Part shown: in pieces, positions 10,945-24,676 of the stretch
Numbering within the stretch: position 1 is the stretch's first letter
Layout: every line of letters begins with the position of its first letter
Made by a program: the position numbers and the translations under genes
Notes under the pieces: model-generated
Databases searched by the model: none
What the model saw: the letters and a program-made list of their open reading frames with translations, nothing else
Told to the model about the DNA's origin: nothing
DNA from: Tubulanus polymorphus
Taxonomy: Eukaryota > Nemertea > Palaeonemertea > Tubulaniformes > Tubulanidae
Reading direction: 5' to 3'
DNA length: 64,000 nucleotides
NCBI RefSeq assembly: GCF_964204645.1
Contig: NC_134031.1
Coordinates: forward strand, 1,488,001-1,552,000

Positions 10945-13900
10945 ATGAAAGAAGACGAACCAGGTAAATCTACATCAATTAGATATCTATCTCTTAAAAG
11001 GAAAACTTGTCATCATAAACCACAACAACCACTGACCACCCTCTCCGTCCGGTCGCCAGCCAGTCGGTACTCTAAACTCTTCTGACTTTTAGTCTTACGT
11101 GTACGTACTACTCACTCGGCACCTTCCCTGTGTAATCTTTAATTAGATCTGACACTGATCAGAGATAACTCAATCCAGATAGAATCAAACTTGTCTGCAT
11201 GTTTATGGATGCTGAATGAACTGTCAATCTGCATTCATCCTCATCCTGCTCTCTCATCACATCATCTCTGTATCACCCACAATTTATTTTCAGCTGCAGC
11301 AGAAGAGAAGACTCAACTGGCGTATGCCGCTATAGGTGTAGCTACAGTATGTTTATTAGTAGGAGTTCCGTTATGGTGGAAGACTACGACTGTTTATAGA
11401 GTCAATTTACCATACGATGATATGTACGCTCTCATCGAGAAGAAGGTCTGTATTTACTACTGTCTGTGAGGGTTTTAGTCAGTAACCTGTCTGTGGTTTA
11501 GTTTCACGATCGGATATTTTCACATAAGCCCATCGGATTATAGAAAGCTAACCACCAAAGATTAGGTAACTGACTATAGGCTACCGTGATTCTAATGATA
11601 TGTTTTATATCTTTCTTTTCTAGCTGGAATATACAACTCCGTTTACTGTTGTATACATGGGCGAGAACCCTAAGAAACAAGATTTGGCAACGTTTGCAAA
11701 GGAACTTCGTAAAACTATGCTATCATCAGGTATATCATATCTACATGATGAGAATATTCGTAGAGTAGCCGTGTTAACCGGGTTTAAAATAAGTAACAGA
11801 GACGAGTAGTACTGTGTAGGTTAACTATTTATTTGACGCACGAGATTTCGCTTCTAATGAATAGAAGCTTCATCAGGTGAACGACTCATTGACCTGATGA
11901 AGCTTCTACCGTATGTCGGTATGTATGTAGCTTAAAACCACTCCCTTCAGATAGACAATCTGCAGCTCTGACCATTCCCCCTTCAGGCAGTTATCCCTTA
12001 TAGTCTTGGTAGTGAAAGCGTGCTGATAAAATGTCTATGTCTGGTGTTTGCAGTTCATTTTTAATTAGAAATGTCTCCGGGTGAAGTACTGAACACATGT
12101 GAAGCGTGGACGATCAGTCTTTGAAATTGTGCTGATAAAATATCTGATGTTTGTAGTTGAAATTCAATTAAAAATGTCTCAGGTGAAGTTCTGAATACGT
12201 GTGAAGTGTGGACGATCAAAACTTGTTTTTGTGTTGTGACAGGGAGGGAGTCAGAGATCACCGCTGTGTATCGCGGTAACGTCAGACGATGGTTCGAGGA
12301 AGAGAAACAGTTATTCACGGCAGCCGTCGACGTTAATGATTTCACGGAGAAGATCGAAGCGGCGAAACTGATCGATGACATCGGACGTTATAAATTCTAC
12401 ATTTTCCCGTTGAATAATAAAATCAAACTGAGCCGATATCACATCACTAACAGACAAAATATTTATATATCTGAACCTGGTACGTAAACTAACAGTAGAC
12501 TCGGGGCCTCATGAGATCTCACCTGTGTTAGGAGGTTGCGTTTTCATTTAATACTGATAATTAAATACGTTGTTTTTAAAGATGATTGGAGCGGACTTGC
12601 TGATGAAATTAAAGTGTTAATGAATAACGTACTGGTGAATGAGGATCTGCTGGAGAATAGTTACCAAACTGCGAAAGGTCATCGATTGAGTCTAAAGGTA
12701 AAAATGGCGTAACTGTTGCATTGATTAAACTGTCCTGAATGCACAGTTAAGTTGAGGATCAGTTGCTCAATAATTGGTTAATGTTTATCAATGAATGGTT
12801 GACATATGACAATACAAAATCCACTGTTTGTCTTTATCCTATATTTGCGCAACTGACCTCTAATCGTTTGCGGTTTCTATTTTTCAGCCCGATAAAGATA
12901 GCATGAGATCAGTAGGATATCATCCTAACTACGATCTGACGTTTACATTAATCAATCCACAGCCGGACATCATTAGAGTTTCCTGGAACATCGAGACTGC
13001 TGTTAAAAGTAAGTATATTTTAGGGCCATAGAGGCCAGATATGGAGCCAATTGTGATCATGTTAAGTGAATAATAATCAACTCTCCTCAATTCTAGATTA
13101 TTTGAATCCATTTCTACAAGCGATGCAAGAATATTCGACATTTTCCGTAAAATCGCAGGTACATTTTTAGAGACGGTTTTGAATTTTTCGGTTAAAAATG
13201 TGTTTAATTAATAAATTGATGATATTGGTTTCAGGTTTTATATTATACATCGATTTCGGTTCGTCCAAGTAAAGATAATGCGGCGAACTGTTTCTATTTG
13301 AAACCACACGAACTTCCTCATTTAATTAATCCTATAGAAAGAGATTTAGGTAAGATTCAAATCAATCTTTATAAATCACGACTATTTCAAACTTCTTAAG
13401 ATCTAAAATATGTTTTTCACTTCAATTTCAGCTTCATTCGCGTCAAAAGACCCGAGTTTGAATTTTATCTTGTACATTCCGTACAGAGGACATTCACCTT
13501 TACACATCTATACAGCACAAGGTATACTACCCTTCATACTTACTAGAAATAAAATATTCTAATGGGAAAATATTCAAATTCTCCTTTTTCATTTTTCCAG
13601 GGAAACCGGCTTCTACAAATGCGTTTTTAAGTCCGCGTTGGGGAGGCGTAGTCATCGAAAATGTACCGAACCCAAAAAATCGTACACAGCTTCCGAGTCG
13701 GGAGACGTTAAATATGCAGCCGATAATGGGCAAATTTATAGAACAGTTGAGACAACTGATAGGAATTCAAACTCGTCTGCCATACGCTAATATCGAGTTC
13801 CAATCAGCGGGGATAACTGCAGTTACGCAATGGGTAAGAATATCACTACTACCCTGTTCTACAGTTGTGTAGGGTTCACTGAGATCTAGTTTCTGTAGTT

Positions 13901-15331
13901 TGTTACTTTCCAGTTCACTTTACTGTGGCTCCGGTTCACTTTACTGTGGCTCCGGTTCACTTTACTGTGGCTCCGGTTCACTTTACTGTGGCTCCGGTTC
14001 ACTTTACTGTGGCTCCGGTTCACTTTACTGTGGTTCCGGTTCACTTTACTGTGGCTCCAGTTCACTTTACTGTGGCTCCGGTTCACTTTACTGTGGCTCC
14101 AGTTCACTTTACTGTGGTTCCGGTTCACTTTACTGTGGCTCCGGTTCACTTTACTGTGGTTCCGGTTCACTTTACTGTGGCTCCGGTTCACTTTACTGTG
14201 GCTCCGGTTCACTTTACTGTGGCTCCGGTTCACTTTACTGTGGCTCCGGTTCACTTTACTGTGGCTCCGGTTCACTTTACTGTGGCTCCGGTTCACTTTA
14301 CTGTGGCTCCGGTTCACTTTACTGTGGTCCCGGTTCACTTTACTGTGGCTCCGGTTCACTTTACTGTGGTTCCTTTCCCTGTTTTTAGGAATTGAATATT
14401 TGGCTGAGAAAACGAACGATTGAAAACATAGCGACGTCAGCGGCTACCCTGAAATCATTGGCCGATCTTTTGGGTAAAATTAAAAACATGGTCATTAACG
14501 ACGACATTGGAAACGAGGTAAAGCCACAAACACGAACCTTCAGATTCAAAACTGACAGCATTCATCAGAGTTGAATCAATATTTGACTGGTTTCAGGTTC
14601 AGTTAGCAGTTGACTCAGTAACGAACGCGCATCAACACCTAAAACAAGGACTTCTACGAGACGCGTTTGAAGCATCGAAACAAGCACTGCAGGCTTCAGG
14701 TAACTATTCCTGCTAAACCTTACACAGGACCAGACACTTCACACATCAGCGTCGTATAGGAATAGTGTACATAATATATGTGGCCTTAAAGGTCCTCGAT
14801 TAATAGAACTGAAATTGCATATAGCTCCAGAGAATTTAAACAGTGAGCAGAGTATCAATAATCTACCTATATCTGTGTAAGAATCTTTCGTTTTATATTG
14901 TATCGTATCTAATTTTTAGAAAAGGCATTTTTTGACCCGTCACTGCTGGAGTTACTGTATTTCCCTGAAGATCAAAAGTATGTAATATATAATACAGTCA
15001 ACCCCCAATATTACCGCCCTCCCATTTACCGCCACCCGCCAGGTTTTCTCAATGTACATCACTATACAAATACAGAGCAAAACATCCCGATACACCGCCA
15101 TACTCTCTACATTCTGCACCGATGTGGGCGGTATATCAGGGGTTGACTGTACTTCAATCAGTATCCTCATACTTTATCCTCTTGATTGACGACAACTTGT
15201 TTTGTTTTTGTTTCAGGTTTGCTATTTATATCCCACTGTTTCTGCCGATCAGTCTCCCCATACTCACTTCGCTGTATTCCGCGTTCAAATATTTCCGAGG
15301 TAGAAATCAACAGAAACAAAAATCGAGTTGA
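10945..15331 (+). CDS. PIGS: GPI transamidase subunit S (PIG-S), complete
   Basis: Fourteen exons: 10945-10963, 11294-11445, 11624-11729, 12243-12479, 12582-12697, 12888-13008, 13097-13158, 13235-13349, 13432-13521, 13601-13833, 14389-14517, 14597-14699, 14920-14977, 15217-15331. They sum to 1656 nt, an open frame of 551 codons plus TGA (human about 555). PIG-S is an ER-membrane subunit of the complex that attaches GPI anchors to proteins. Seen: an N-terminal membrane segment ending GVPLWWKTTTVYRV, a lumenal body with the motifs RVSWNIE and FLSPRWGGVVIENV, and a C-terminal membrane helix opening FAIYIPLFLPISLPIL. The first exon is tiny (MKEDEP); its ATG is chosen because it gives the expected short cytosolic tail. 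A 460-bp minisatellite sits in intron 10 and a MITE in intron 13. The 3' end converges on SRP72. Confidence 0.97.
13911..14373. repeat. 21-bp minisatellite in PIGS intron 10
   Basis: About 22 copies of GGTTCACTTTACTGTGGCTC plus one C, with a few C/T variants. The array ends about 15 bp before the acceptor of exon 11. Because 21 is divisible by 3, the array stays open in several frames on both strands, which produces long but meaningless reading frames (13886-14395). Confidence 0.97.
14993..15152. mobile_element. Pogo-like MITE in PIGS intron 13
   Basis: Ends read TACAGTCAACCCC on the left and GGGGTTGACTGTA on the right, giving TA-flanked CAGTCAACCCC inverted repeats. About 155 bp. Inner parts also pair (ACCGCCCTCCC with GGGCGGTAT). 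The ends resemble Tc1/mariner/pogo non-autonomous elements. No coding capacity. Confidence 0.7.
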
Positions 15332-15900: not shown

Positions 15901-18900
15901 CTACCATTTTGCACCTTTGCCTTTCTTCTTTTTCTTGTTGGCACCCTGAGGTTTCTGTTGTCGAGGTCCAGGGGTCGGGGTAGGTTGACTCGACTGTGAG
16001 GGTTTAGGAGAACTGATGTTACTCGCGCTCGGAGATGACATTACTCGAGTATCACTGGAAAAAAAATATGTAAAATAACATCAAGAATCAAGTGGTCAAA
16101 CGTGAGAGGAATCGATCTTGCCACAGGAGTTTGTTTACATAACTGGGAACAGTTGTATAGTCGTGATCACTTAAGTCTGAAATTGGTCTCAAAGATTGAC
16201 TATAGAATCCAAGATTAGTGTGATTAGATCTTGCAACAGGAGTGTGTTTACCGTGGGAACAGTTGTATCGTCTAGACAAAAGTCTGAAACTGGTCTGACT
16301 ATAGAACCCAAAATGGCATTAGAGTGGTCTTAAATCTAAGCCATGACTACAATTGGCCTCATTGGTTTCAGTCAATCTGAATCCCGAATCAGGTAAGGTC
16401 TATTACATCTATGTAACTAACTACAAAATGTTTATGAGCAAAACACTGTTGACAATGATGATGAAATTTACTCCAAATAAACTGTCCAAATAAATTTTTA
16501 TATCATCAACTGTGGTTTTTGCTCATTAACACTATCAGTCGAACAGTCAAAATGTTCGCTTTTCTTACCTTTCATAAGCAGACGAACCCTGGGTACCTTT
16601 TCCTAAAAACAGAACAAAATTATTTGTTAAATAATTGTAATTTGATGACGTCATAGGGGGATTGAGGAGGCAGCCATTAATAAAGTACCTATTTCTTTTC
16701 TCTTGTCTTTCCTCTTTCCGCGGTAGTAAGAACGTTCTCGTTTGGGTAACCATCGTTCCGGATCGATAACGGCGTTCGGGTCGTAGTCTTTTGGAAGTCT
16801 CTTCTTTTTCTTTTTCTTCTTTTTCTTTTCGATCAGTTCATCGCCGGCCCCACTGGAATACGAGAACACGTTATTTATCCCGGAAACAATGATGATCAAT
16901 TATATAAACGAATTGATCCAAATGATGACAAAAACACTTAGTAAATTGACTTTATCCAAATGACTTTAAAATGACTTTATCCAAATGACAACTTAACCAA
17001 GTTTTAACTAGTTTTGCCGATGTAAAATTTACCGTTCCGGAGATTTCGGTGTTTTCGGACTCTGTTCAGTTTTGCCCATTTTTTTCACGTATCTCGTACC
17101 GAGCGTAGATACTGCTGATTCTAACGCGTCAACGTCTATATCGGCGCTAGCGTCCGCTACTGACGGTAGATCTTTACTAATACTGTATCAATAGAGCGTT
17201 AAGTTGTCAAAACATTCTCAAGTTTAGTGAAAATTGCTAAGGGCACAGTTCCACAGTTCTGAATCCAGTTCAACAGATCGACTGCAAGTTTTCCTCCGAT
17301 CTCGAAATTTTCTCCGTAAAGCATCGATTGAATTCTGGGGCAGTCGGAGTCGGAGCGGGTTATTATCACATGAATTGGAGTACATCGGGAAATTTTAAAT
17401 ATTTTGCATCATATTTACGGATTTTCGATAGGCGCAACTGTGGTATAGATTTGAAAGGATACGCTTGAGCTTTCTTCTGGTCGAATTTAGAATAAGCAGA
17501 AATGAGCTGAGCCAATGTTTTCATATCTTGTGGATTCTTCCTACAAAAACAAAAACACTAAATTTGAATTTCTCTTTACGAAAACACGTTGCACAATGAC
17601 CGAAGAGCTGCCTCTGAAGATGGTCTACTCACCTGTAAACTTCTTCCAATAATCTGCTAGCGTTTTCTGGTTTGCCGTGTTTCAGATGCATATCGGCACA
17701 AATCTGTATCATGGACGCCAGATCTTTACTGTCCGACTAGAAATAATATACAATTTCATTTCAGAAAATATGAAATACCGGTACATATTATACGATCAAA
17801 TCAAAGGTTTTCCTGAAGCCTTGAAAGTTCTCCTTACATCATTTTTCTGATACCACTCGACAGCATTGTCTAAAACCTCGATCGCTTCGTCCATATCTTC
17901 CTGGTGTTTGTATAAAGTGACTAGTGATGAAACCTAAATAAACGCACAATAACAACAGAGTTTAGAAATATCACCGGTTAAAGATTTTCTCCTTTCTACC
18001 AGAACAGACCACTTGACATCTCTAATTGTAGTAATCATTACCAAAAGTAATTTGCCATCTTTAATGAAAAGATGAACTAGAAATAATTCAGATTTAATGA
18101 AAAGATGAACTAGAAATTATTCAGATCTAATGAAAAGATGAACTAGAAATTACTCAGATTTAATGAAAAAAGATGAACTAGAAATTATTCAGATTTAATG
18201 AAAAGATGAACTAGAAATTATTCAGATTTAATGAAAAAAGATGAACTAGAAATTATTCAGATTTAATGAAAAGATGAACTAGAAATTACTCAGATTTAAT
18301 GAAAAGATGAACTCGAAATTATTCAGATTTAATGAAAAAAGATGAACTAGAAATTATTCAGATTTAATGAAAAGATGAACTAGAAATTACTCAGATTTAA
18401 TGAAAAGATGAACTCGAAATTATTCAGATTTAATGAAAAAAGATGAACTAGAAATTATTCAGATCTAATGAAAAGATGAACTAGAAATTACTCAGATTTA
18501 ATGAAAAGATGAACTAGAAATTACTCAGATTTAATGAAAAGATGAACTAGAAATTATTCAGATTTAATGAAAAACGATGAACTAGAAATTATTCAGATTT
18601 TGAGAGTATTTTGATATTTTAAGTAGTAAGTTGAGCTCCTAAAAAGAAAGTGCAGAAACTACTCTCACTAATAGTAGTTGTAATCAGGTGTGTTCTACTG
18701 ATTGAATGAAATCTCTTACCACGCCAGGTCTATGATCGTCAGATCCGAGGTTTTTCAGAATATCACACGCCTTGTAAACGTGTCCTTGCGTCAGATACAT
18801 TTGAGCGAGAACGAGTTTCGTACGTAATGAAATATCTTCGTTATCATCGACCGATTTCTGTAATAATTCCGTAGCTTTTTCCGTATGTTTTTCTCTACAC

Positions 18901-21900
18901 AGTTGAGCTACTTGTATCAATCTCGGTAAATCACTGTCACGATTCTTTTCTTGTAATTCTTCGGCCATTTTAATGCACTGTTCGCCCTGTAAATAATGCC
19001 ACAGCAGCATAAAAATAAATCAAGACCCAGTTCTAGAGTCAAATCTTATAAATTGACAGCTCTGTGGAATTGGTAGTCAGTACAAGTAACCTGTCTGTAG
19101 TTTAGTATCAAGGTCAAATATTTTCACAAACCACACAGTATAAGCCAATCTGATCATAAAAGCAAACCACGGTCAACAATTAGGTAACTAAATATGGAAC
19201 TGGGTGCAGCTGCTGCAGCTGGTGTTTGTATTGTACCTGATTCATGTACATGTACAGTAAACAATGATTCATACTGATCACTTTACGCTGAGCGATCGTC
19301 AGTTTATGTTGAAGTCCGTCTGCCGTCGCGACCTTCATTTTCTTCTTCGAATCAAATACATTTTGATCCTAAAATCAATAAATATGACATCAAATATCGG
19401 AGGAGAGGAAATATACTGAAAATGTGACGATTGAATATGAATTTTACCTTGTTACAAGCGACAATGTTATTTGAGGCTACAGCAGTTAATCCAATATCAG
19501 TAGGTCTGAAACATCACACAAACAATCATTTCAAATCATCACCTTTATACTGTTAAATACTTTTACAATAATTTTCAACAAAATATTACCTTTGTTTAAT
19601 GACTTGGTTGTAAAGTTTTAACGCTTGATCATTTTTACCCATCATTTGTAAAGCACAGCCTCGTTGTACTCTGTAAAATAATTGAAATGAGTAAATCTGA
19701 AGTCGAGCTTTCATCCAAAATAAAACGGGATTTCTGATTGGCTGATAATGACATCATCTAAGCTGCGCATGTAGCTGCCACTCGGACTAGTGCGGCAGGG
19801 TTTCGTACCGTCGCAATCTCGTTGCCATTAGGTTCGAATCCCAGCCGGGGGAGGATGATCCCCACCGGACGTAGGAGTTTTAATACAATACGAACCGGAT
19901 GACTCCTAATTCAGCATCTATTTCCTCTTCAGTAACGTCGGGATCATCTTCCAAAAACTTACGACATAATTCTAAAATATGAGATAAACATCATTCACTC
20001 AATATTATCTTACTGCATGGGGGCTGATTTTTTGATGTTATAACACTATGAGAATTAGAGAAATTTCTAGGTTTATAACGTTTTAATTCATTTATTTTTC
20101 ATTCAAAGTTTTCCAGGTCAGTAGCCACACTGTCAAAGATCATCTTTAGGTCTAAGTTTTTTATTAAGTATAACAACCAAAGACTAGGGGTCAGTTGCTC
20201 AAAAGTTGGTTTAGAGTTAACCAGTGGATAGTTGGCATAGTGACAATTAAACTTTCATTGTTACTATGGTATTTATCCACTGGTTATCTTTAACCAACTT
20301 TTGAGCAACTGGCCCTAGGCTTTTGAGACTGAACTTTTAAGTCATGATTATGCAAATGGAACCTGAATTTGCTGCATTTGGGCGACTAACACAAACATGG
20401 CTTATGAGTTAAGACTGGTCTAACTGGGTGGCGTCACTTTTCACCCATTTACAAATTCCCGGATTTTTTCTGATGTTACAAGACAAAGTGAATTAGAGAA
20501 ATTTCTAGGTTTAAAACTATATTCAATTCATTCATTTTTCATTGAATCACGTATTGATAAAGAAACATGTGGTCAATTCAGTTATCTGCCATTATTTCTA
20601 GATTTTTCTGATTCCCTGAGTTTTCCAGGTTTTCCAGGCGAGTCACCACACTGTCAAAAACACTTCTGTTCTTTATTTAAGTCTAACATCCAAAGACTCT
20701 AGGCTTTTGAAACTGAATTTTTGAGTCATGATTATGCAAATGGAACCTGAATTTGCTGACTGTTAATACATAAATTCCGAACATTTCATACCTTCAGTTT
20801 CGTGTAGTTTAGCGACTGCTTCTGAGAACTTTCCGCAAGCGAGTAATTGACAAGCCGCGTTATAACTCAATTCATACGTATCCTCTCGAATCGGACAAAT
20901 CACTTCATCATCCTCTTTATCCTGCTGTAGAGCTACGACAACCGCTGATAAATTAGTCTCTCGCTCATCTTCAAAATCATCCTGAAAATCATCACGAAAT
21001 ATTGAAAATCAGTTGATTACAGGTTGAGAATCAAAAACACGCGGATGAATTCGATTCTTACCGATGAATTACGAATGAGGTCTTTATAAACTTCAAAACA
21101 TTCTTCATGTTCTTCTAATCTGTATAACTGAAAAAAATAAAAGAGGCAATTAACCTATTATCCACAACTCAGTTTTACAGGCAAAATCAGTTAATTTCCA
21201 ATGTTTCAACACTAGAGACATAGCGTCTAAATTATGTTACACTTACAACTTGAGCCAAAAGTTCTTTAATTTTCAGGCTGGGATTCTGAACGGAACGCAG
21301 CGTAGTTAAAGCTTCTTTTGTGCGATTCAAACGATATTCGCAATACGCCTGTTCGAACGACAGATCGCTGAAAAACAATTAAAACATGCATTTCATGAGC
21401 CGTTAATCAATATCTATATATAGTTATAATGAGTATTACACCGGTACTGATATAATGATGGATTAGCGGTAGTAATACTTACACATCGACAGTGGCTGAT
21501 TTACGAATCAGGTGCAGAGCATCGGTAAATCGATTTAAATGTAAAAAACAAACCACTTTACAATGAACGGCTTGAGGTTCACCGGGTAATTCATTCAATA
21601 CTGAAATATATACATTTAAACATTAATACATCGGTCAATTAGAATTACAGGTCAGGCCATATGTCAGCAGACAGGAGCCGGACCGGAGGGCCTGAAAATG
21701 ACTGCGACTGCGAGAGGTCCTATCTGGACTGTGTGCAAAGTATGGACACACTCCCAAATTGGTGTTCTGGAATTTTTTCAATACTAAAATCATTTGACCT
21801 TCATGGTGTTTGGTCTAATCATGGCTCCAACCACCCCAATAAAATTATCAAGCTGCTCCAGTCTAAAATGTATCTCTTTTATTCTTCTTCGTGGCTATTT

Positions 21901-22785
21901 CAAATCAACGACAGTAATTCCAACCCCAAATTAAGGACTTATAAACTTTTTAAAAAACGCTTTGAACTAGAAAAATATATTATTTCGAACTCTTTCCTTA
22001 AAAGACGCGAATTTTCCAAACTGCGTCTCGGTTCCCATCGGCTTAGAATCGAGACGGGGCGTCACTGTCGTCCATTTTTACCAGCCAATGAGAGATTTTG
22101 CCTCTACTGTACTGTAAATAAAGTCGTTGAGGACGAATCCCACTTTTTACTCGAGTGTCCCTCGCTTCATCCTGCCAGAGTCTCCATTTTATCCTCACTT
22201 GTATGTTTCACAGAGTTTGAGTCTTTTTGTGTTTTCGATAAATTCCTATTTTTGATGTCCTATAACAACGGAGACTATGAAATTGCCAGCCTTATGTGTA
22301 ACCTAGTTAACTCTTTATTTGCCCTCCGTTCAACACTTTGATTCTTTTATATTATATTCACTTGATTGTATCGCCACCTAGTTTCCTTGCTGTAATATTA
22401 TATTTTGTTTTACGTTTAACATATTTTATTTGTAAATATTCTCTATTCCTATGTTATCCATTATAAAAGCGATTTTAAATGTATGTCCACTCTTGTACTG
22501 TTTTCCCTGTGTCTTGATGTTAATATTTTATTGCATGTCATTTCCTATGTAACTTGTGTATTATATGGAGCAATAAAATTAAAGTTCAAGTTCAAGTTCA
22601 AGTTCAAGGTCCCTGCTCATCTGGCTTAGATTAGAATGGACCAGCAGGCAGGACACTGGTTTCTGGGAAGACTGACAGTTTTACTCACATTTATTGACGG
22701 TTTTTAAAGCGGCCTCGTAATTCTGATTCTGTCCATATTTATTCAGATCCGACCATAAACTGGCCACACCAGCAGTAGCAGCCAT
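15901..22785 (-). CDS. SRP72: Signal recognition particle 72 kDa subunit, complete
   Basis: Seventeen exons, listed in transcription order: 22689-22785, 21483-21600, 21247-21367, 21062-21127, 20792-20981, 19896-19971, 19590-19670, 19448-19505, 19237-19368, 18720-18986, 17838-17933, 17633-17736, 17463-17540, 17033-17182, 16689-16852, 16569-16602, 15901-16054. They sum to 1986 nt, 661 codons plus TAG (human 671). SRP72 binds SRP68 and 7S RNA in the particle that targets ribosomes to the ER. Seen: N-terminal LWSDLNKYGQN, TPR-type helices through exons 2-13 (AYCEYRL, ALKLYNQVIK), the diagnostic DQNVFDSKKK, and a lysine run followed by the RNA-binding signature DPERWLPKRERSYYRG near residues 567-583, ending in a basic tail KKKKKGKGAKW. 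Donor GTATCC at exon 13 is preferred over a downstream GTAAAT because it keeps phase and restores family similarity. Exon 6 has a weak donor, GTTCGT. Confidence 0.97.
18062..18600. repeat. 33-bp minisatellite in SRP72 intron
   Basis: About 16 copies of a 33-bp AT-rich unit (core AATGAAAAGATGAACTAGAA followed by ATTATTCAGATTT), with variants in A-run length and ATTACT for ATTATT. It lies between exons 10 and 11 and has no coding relevance. Confidence 0.95.
20187..20317. mobile_element. 131-bp palindromic MITE, copy 1
   Basis: Opens GGGGTCAGTTGCTCAAAAGT and closes with its complement ending GAGCAACTGGCCC, with AACCAGTGGATA mirrored by TATCCACTGGTT inside. It lies in an SRP72 intron. A second, closely similar copy is in SRPRB intron 3 (23554-23684), and a decayed one may lie near 12750-12830. 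Confidence 0.85.
21640..22608 (+). mobile_element. 5'-truncated non-LTR retrotransposon (LINE) fragment
   Basis: Inserted antisense in SRP72 intron 1. An open frame at about 21661-22341 shows the features of the C-terminal end of a LINE ORF2 protein. Basic helices with KLRTYKLFKKRFELEKYI are followed by KLRLGSHRLRIETGR, then a CLYC...H....C knuckle (C-x2-C, H, C spacing with EDESHFLLEC). The stop is at 22339-22341. The 3' region carries AATAAA and ends at about 22608 in a short TTCAAG-type tandem tail, typical of several LINE clades. The reverse transcriptase core and endonuclease are missing, so it cannot move by itself. The intact frame suggests a fairly recent insertion. Clade (CR1, L2 or RTE type) is not resolved. 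Confidence 0.75.
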
Positions 22786-23048
22786 ATTTACTACAGCAAT
22801 ACACTTTTAAACGGCGTCGAATCCGTGACGGTTAGTGTGTTAGAATCTATAGAATCGTGCTCGCTGCGGTACTCTAATACCCGGCGCCTTATCTCCTCCT
22901 TCATTTGGGCTCATTCTGTTGGTAGATTCAGACTCGATGATCAGTAGATCACGTGGTTCATTAGGGTTAGGGTTAAGGGTCCAGATTTACCAACAGAATA
23001 AGCCCCTTCAACGCGAACCAGGAAGTGAAATTCAGTAACTCCAGAATC
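22786..23048. promoter_or_regulatory. Shared SRP72/SRPRB bidirectional promoter region
   Basis: Only 263 bp separate the two divergent start codons. An imperfect inverted repeat (GGGCTCATTCTGTTGGTAGA at 22907, mirrored by TTACCAACAGAATAAGCCCC near 22987-23006) spans the middle. Close to its centre is CACGTG (22950-22955), the palindromic E-box bound by bHLH-zip factors, followed by TTAGGGTTAGGGTT. No clear TATA box was seen. Function as a shared promoter is inferred from spacing. Confidence 0.65.
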
Positions 23049-24676
23049 ATGGATGAATTAAAAGCTTCTTTCTCGCAGTTAATTAAAGATATCGACCCTG
23101 TTTTACTGGGTGTACTGACAGCTGTTGTTGTAATCTTTCTCACAATCGGTAATTATTTAAATATTTCCCCGATTTCTCCACGAAAACGTCACTTGATTAC
23201 CGACATATGTTCGTCATATAGTCTGTGCGGGCACCTTTCAACAAATTCTTTTTCACTTTCAGTTTTGCTCAAATTTGCTAAAGGAGGCAGAAAAGGTTCT
23301 CATGTTGTTTTTGTCGGTTTATGCGATGCTGGTAAAACATTGATATTCAGCAAAGTAGGTAGTTTTGAATTCAATTTCAGTAATGACACCTGTTGAATCA
23401 GTAGTCTCGAACTATTTTCTTTTTTCAATGTTTTCAGCTCGCTCATGGGAGACATATTACCACTCATACCTCAATGAAAGAAAACCTGGGAAAATATACC
23501 ATCTCAGAGAAGGTAAACTACAATGATACTGATATGATCTTATTTTGGGGACCAGGGGTCAGTTGCTCAAAAGTTGGTTACAGTTAACGAGTGGATAGTT
23601 GACATAGTGACAATTAAAAATTCATTGTTACTATGGTATTTATCCGCTGGTTATCTGTAACCAACTTTTAAGCAACTGGCCCCTGAAAGTGTCTAAATTC
23701 AGATCATTATACTTGCAGAATAAGACAGTTCAAATAGTCGATATACCCGGTCATGAAAGGAGTCGTCAAAAGTTTGTTGATCAGTATAAGAGCCTGGCAA
23801 GGTTAGTCTTAATTCTACTCCTGATAATAAACATTTATAACATTTGTAGCAAAGTAAATCTATCGCGAAAATCTTATTTACAGTAGATTTTACGATGGAT
23901 TTTTCGATGATTTTCAGAGCTATAGTATTTGTAGTCGATAGTACGACTTTCCAGAAGGAATATAAAGATGTAGCTGAGTAAGTTTAACGACACCACATTT
24001 GTTACGCAAGTTTTCACCAAACATGAAAATCAATAATTGCTCGAAATCCCTGTTTTCTAGGTATCTGTACAACTTGTTGACCGATGCAGTCATTTCTAGA
24101 AATTGTCCACCGATTCTAATGTTGTGTAATAAACAGGATTACACGCTGGCTAAAGGTGCTAAAGTCATTCAGACTCAACTTCAGAAAGAAATGTAAGTAA
24201 CCAGTTCAGTTCAGTCAAACTCAGTTTAGTCGTCATTAGATAGCTGCGTCAAATAAACTGAAATCACTTCTATGTTTAGATGCCTCACTTGATGAAATAT
24301 CTTGTTTATTATTTAGCAGTTTTCAAAACTGCTTAAAAATGAACAAGATATTTCAAAATCCAAAACTTTTGGATTTTGTCTCCAAATCCCATCATCAGGG
24401 ATCTAAATTCTGTATTCCTTCGTTACTCAAGTGACTAGTTAAAGATTCATGTTTTCTGATTTCAGAAATACTTTGCGTAAAACTCGAGCTGCCGCGTTAG
24501 ATGCGACGGACGGCGACGTCGGAAATAATAACACATTCCTCGGAAAACGCAATAAAGACTTTGAATTTACGGATATAAAACCGTTCTGTGTTGAGTTCGC
24601 TGAATGCAGCGCGGGAACCAGCGCTGATGACTCTAAGTTAGACGAATTAGAACAGTGGATCGTGAAAATATCATAA
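23049..24676 (+). CDS. SRPRB: Signal recognition particle receptor subunit beta, complete
   Basis: Seven exons: 23049-23148, 23263-23354, 23438-23512, 23719-23801, 23918-23977, 24061-24192, 24466-24676. They sum to 753 nt, 250 codons plus TAA (human 271). The product is the membrane-anchored small GTPase that holds the SRP receptor alpha subunit at the ER. Seen: a single N-terminal membrane segment (LLGVLTAVVVIFLTIV), P-loop GLCDAGKT (residues 52-59), G2-region THTS, G3 DIPGHE, G4 NKQD and a C-terminal ECSAG (G5). The ATG at 23049 is used; a GTG eight codons upstream extends the frame but is unlikely as a start. It is head-to-head with SRP72, its functional partner in co-translational targeting. 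Intron 3 holds a palindromic MITE. Confidence 0.97.
23554..23684. mobile_element. 131-bp palindromic MITE, copy 2
   Basis: Starts CAGGGGTCAGTTGCTCAAAA and ends GCAACTGGCCCCTG. It is closely related to the copy at 20187-20317 and lies in SRPRB intron 3. Confidence 0.85.

Follow-up and report, generated by a model that had tools for sequence, protein, structure and literature searches.

SRP72 and SRPRB form a head-to-head gene pair across a 263-bp putative promoter in the nemertean Tubulanus polymorphus

Results

The SRP72 and SRPRB genes

Two adjacent protein-coding genes of the signal recognition particle (SRP) pathway, SRP72 on the minus strand and SRPRB on the plus strand, lie head to head within the window, by which we mean the whole 64-kb stretch of DNA analysed. 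Their products carry out successive steps in bringing newly made proteins to the endoplasmic reticulum (ER). Both models were rebuilt from splice signals.

15901-22785, minus strand: SRP72 gene, 17 exons, 669 aa; splice-signal model, with Pfam SRP72 and SRP_TPR_like and PDB SRP72 matches
22689-22785, 21483-21600, 21247-21367, 21062-21127, 20792-20981, 19896-19971, minus strand: SRP72 exons 1 to 6
19590-19670, 19448-19505, 19237-19368, 18720-18986, 17838-17933, 17633-17736, minus strand: SRP72 exons 7 to 12
17439-17540, 17033-17182, 16689-16852, 16569-16602, 15901-16054, minus strand: SRP72 exons 13 to 17
23049-24676, plus strand: SRPRB gene, 7 exons, 250 aa; splice-signal model, with Pfam SRPRB and PDB SRPRB matches
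23049-23148, 23263-23354, 23438-23512, 23719-23801, 23918-23977, 24061-24192, 24466-24676, plus strand: SRPRB exons

Every intron of both genes is GT-AG, and SRP72 runs from an ATG at 22785 to a stop codon that ends at 15901. Near-equal splice alternatives at the exon 6 donor (GTTCGT) and the exon 14 acceptor of SRP72 would shift the protein by 2-3 residues. The original prediction had named both genes and claimed that both models close in phase; Pfam and PDB matches bear out the names, and the rebuilt 669-aa and 250-aa frames do close, with all introns GT-AG.

The SRP72 product contains both a TPR region (PF17004) and the C-terminal SRP72 RNA-binding domain (PF08492, E=1.2e-16). The SRPRB product matches PF09439 (SRPRB, E=4.7e-49) and also PF00025, and its translation holds the motif GLCDAGKT, of the GxxxxGKT type, in the SRPRB/Arf-type GTPase domain that these two families mark. 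A hydrophobic stretch near residues 18-37, read from the translation, is the putative N-terminal transmembrane segment. Both products match their mammalian orthologues over their full length, SRP72 at residues 6-665 (7obq_z, E=8.6e-183) and SRPRB to 7nfx_v (E=1e-61). Judged by sequence, the identity of both proteins is beyond doubt. Each gene is single copy in the 267.8-Mb assembly.

In-frame stops lie upstream of both start codons, TAA at 22807-22809 for SRP72 (21 bases upstream) and TAA at 22974-22976 for SRPRB (72 bases), with no earlier in-frame ATG between either stop and its start. At the protein level both starts therefore hold, unless an earlier one lies in a 5' exon. We found nothing in favour of an assembly join or a mis-annotation, and such an error is extremely improbable: both genes are continuous with all their splice sites, the gap between them is unique in the assembly, and the upstream stops fix both starts. 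A scan of prokaryote and virus contig collections for stray animal relatives found none, and Rfam gave no match in the 64-kb window.

Several introns contain repeats. Intron 1 of SRP72 is largely occupied, at 21643-22608, by a LINE-like fragment that carries an (AAGTTC)n tail and an open frame of 232 codons; by eye, the frame resembles the C-terminal part of a reverse transcriptase and a zinc-binding region. Intron 10 holds a 33-bp minisatellite of about 16 copies (18060-18600). A palindromic MITE-like element of about 122 bp (CAGTTGCTCAAAAGTTGGTT...AACCAACTTTTGAGCAACTG) is present both in SRP72 intron 5 (20191-20312) and in SRPRB intron 3 (23559-23679), with a partial third match at 12759.

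The interval between the start codons

The ATG-to-ATG interval is exactly 263 bp, and both this figure and the divergent orientation agree with what had been predicted. If the 5' UTRs are unspliced, the two transcription starts would be within 1,000 bp of each other; a non-coding exon may, however, lie further upstream.

22786-23048, no strand: putative bidirectional promoter, the ATG-to-ATG interval; GC 0.449, CpG observed/expected 1.06, no TATA box
22950-22955, no strand: CACGTG E-box between the arms of an inverted repeat; sequence match only
22961-22978, plus strand: telomere-like TTAGGGTTAGGGTTAAGG; 0.11 expected in the window by shuffling
23018-23026, plus strand: ETS-like CCAGGAAGT, 22 bp before the SRPRB ATG; sequence match only

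GC content and CpG ratio are ordinary for the 64-kb window, in which the gap is no CpG outlier, and a search of the 263 bp for a TATA box found none. (TTAGGG)2 lies inside the gap.

The very short gap and the lack of a TATA box make a shared promoter plausible, and on geometry alone it is likely. Two TATA-less core promoters, facing outward, would occupy one 263-bp interval of open chromatin. Activator sites are probably common to both, so that the two genes would likely share their basal activation. The alternative is two independent promoters that stand side by side without shared regulation. In its favour, short gaps between divergent genes are frequent (PMC2670823), and not all divergent pairs are co-expressed. 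However, 263 bp should force the 5' UTRs and core promoters of the two genes to overlap or abut within one nucleosome-free region, and we regard full independence as unlikely. A dedicated co-regulation of the particle and receptor genes is putative.

An inverted repeat in the gap

The E-box is flanked by two inverted arms, each with a 21-nt core and an extension to 29 nt.

22907-22935, plus strand: left arm of the inverted repeat, GGGCTCATTCTGTTGGTAGAT(TCAGACTC)
22977-23005, minus strand: right arm of the inverted repeat, GGGCTTATTCTGTTGGTAAAT(CTGGACCC)

The cores, at 22907-22927 and 22985-23005, are complementary at 19/21 positions (90%). Extended inward to 29 nt, the arms pair at 23/29, and by eye the differences are all transitions. 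The observed 19/21 is far above Markov simulation, whose best was 16/21, but it is equalled in 8 of the 243 real windows of gap size in the same 64 kb, or about 3% locally. Inverted repeats occur commonly across the genome, so the one in the gap is only suggestive.

The two gap arms are the only copies of the exact 21-mer core in the whole assembly, and the 116-bp inverted-repeat unit occurs once. A recent dispersed MITE or DNA transposon was considered as the source of the repeat and rejected, the unit being single copy with no target-site duplication visible by eye. It may have originated as an old transposon relic.

Relatives of the arm were found by similarity to the gap site, and only some of them were read. 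Several of the nearest lie close to the starts of conserved genes, with similar arms beside four other loci. On contig C1 (3545812-3545953) an inverted arm pair surrounds CACGTG before an LTO1-like first exon, and at C3:2125783 an inverted pair precedes a FAM185A-like gene. One arm with CCCTAA repeats lies in the short divergent gap of condensin-H-like and DDX56-like genes (C2:31131627), and one arm with CACGTG and TTAGGG repeats in that of a Spindly-like gene and EMC3 (C8:16603206). PDB or Pfam matches back the names EMC3 and condensin-H, and the Spindly-like gene has a weak PDB match (E=0.0087); the names LTO1, DDX56 and FAM185A are tentative, with weak or general Pfam support.

We treat the shared promoter module that these sites suggest as a lead and no more. 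A looser arm pattern gave 30 matches against 6 for a reversed-pattern control, the matches coming partly from one repeat family and one minisatellite, and the exact arm pattern alone showed no real excess (9 against 7). We think it distinctly unlikely that the gap is one case of a recurrent lineage module, in which two inward-facing GGGCTnATTCnGTTGGTAAAT around CACGTG, with telomere-type repeats, would drive both SRP72 and SRPRB, recur at further genes of ER biogenesis and housekeeping, namely the EMC3/Spindly-like, condensin-H/DDX56-like, LTO1-like and FAM185A-like genes, and co-regulate SRP72, SRPRB and EMC3.

The pattern CACGTG-N20-50-ACCAACNNAAT was also tried as a promoter signal and set aside. 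It matched 18 times against 7 for the reversed-pattern control, an excess that is not usable because at least one match lies in a high-copy dispersed repeat and three lie in one tandem array. By eye, a second match resembles the one in the dispersed repeat. The dispersed repeat (C6:8995927 and many other places) holds CACGTG and ACCAACCAAAT about 50 bp apart; there are 575 candidates, with 94-100% identity among the 40 scored.

Neighbouring genes and other SRP genes

PIGS (11143-15331, plus strand) lies upstream of the pair. With its last exon ending near 15331, it converges tail to tail with SRP72 over about 570 bp. PIGS is a subunit of the GPI transamidase in the ER membrane, and as it converges on SRP72, three neighbouring genes act at that membrane. 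The PIGS gene contains a 21-bp tandem repeat of 22 copies (13909-14373) in which several frames are open. Downstream of the pair are a long low-complexity gene (minus strand), enolase (plus strand, 44.8-47.4 kb) and a PH-domain gene (minus strand).

Matches to SRP54-family GTPases (SRP54 or SRPRA) fall on C1 and C6, and SRP68 is on C4. Because the other SRP genes sought sit on other contigs, there is one pair and no pathway cluster. SRP68 itself (C4:23589606) probably shares a short divergent gap with a GGH-like gene, whose Pfam match is weak (E=0.09).

Discussion

The SRP72-SRPRB pair adds a new case to a well-known type of divergent arrangement. It resembles HSPD1-HSPE1 and the human DPGs in that housekeeping protein-coding genes lie head to head, with start codons less than 1 kb apart, no TATA box and functionally related partners (PMC2871058). 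It differs from known divergently paired genes in that our full-text literature searches found no description of this combination, and in that its gap is no CpG outlier in the genome. The human genes, at 4q12 (SRP72) and 3q22.1 (SRPRB), are on different chromosomes, whereas in T. polymorphus they are adjacent.

In divergent metazoan gene pairs the share of functionally related partners grows with conservation, and the conserved pairs show an enrichment for related function (PMC2871058), which raises the prior of selection for a matched pair such as this one. SRP72 and SRPRB are both single copy and the gap is very short, which would also suit an ancient or lineage-conserved functional pair, selected for co-expression of SRP with its receptor and lost in vertebrates. 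Yet the direct partner of SRPRB is SRPRA, not SRP72, and we know of no need for SRP72 and SRPRB to be matched in dosage. The pair is not known from human, fly or worm. The scatter of the other SRP genes sought and the silence of the literature also argue against such a pair, and we consider it possible but rather doubtful. As functional relatedness is commoner among conserved metazoan pairs, conservation is the test that matters. If the adjacency is conserved, a single promoter would serve the genes of both particle and receptor in one targeting pathway, which would be rare, and the pair would offer a ready way to test dosage coupling in secretion. If it is not, the pair would usefully illustrate the frequency with which chance brings functionally matched genes into divergent pairs in compact animal genomes.

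The reading that we favour, with some reserve, is an ordinary compact bidirectional pair of two housekeeping genes with a TATA-less promoter, whose functional match most likely arose by chance. That partners in the same pathway came to share the interval would be an accident of gene order where divergent pairs are many; no ancient dedicated unit would be needed. Of all genes, 31.6% in Drosophila melanogaster and 6-55% across eukaryotes belong to divergent pairs less than 1 kb apart (PMC2670823); in human the share is about 12% (PMC12672016). Named alone, SRP72 and SRPRB would be adjacent by chance with a probability of about 1e-5. This pair had not been singled out beforehand, however, and once corrected for looking elsewhere its adjacency is unremarkable: by arithmetic that assumes 25,000 genes, 0.4-1.1 divergent pairs per genome are expected to join two members of one 8-protein module. 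The other divergent neighbours that we met, condensin-H-like with DDX56-like, Spindly-like with EMC3 and probably GGH-like (a weak match) with SRP68, join unrelated genes.
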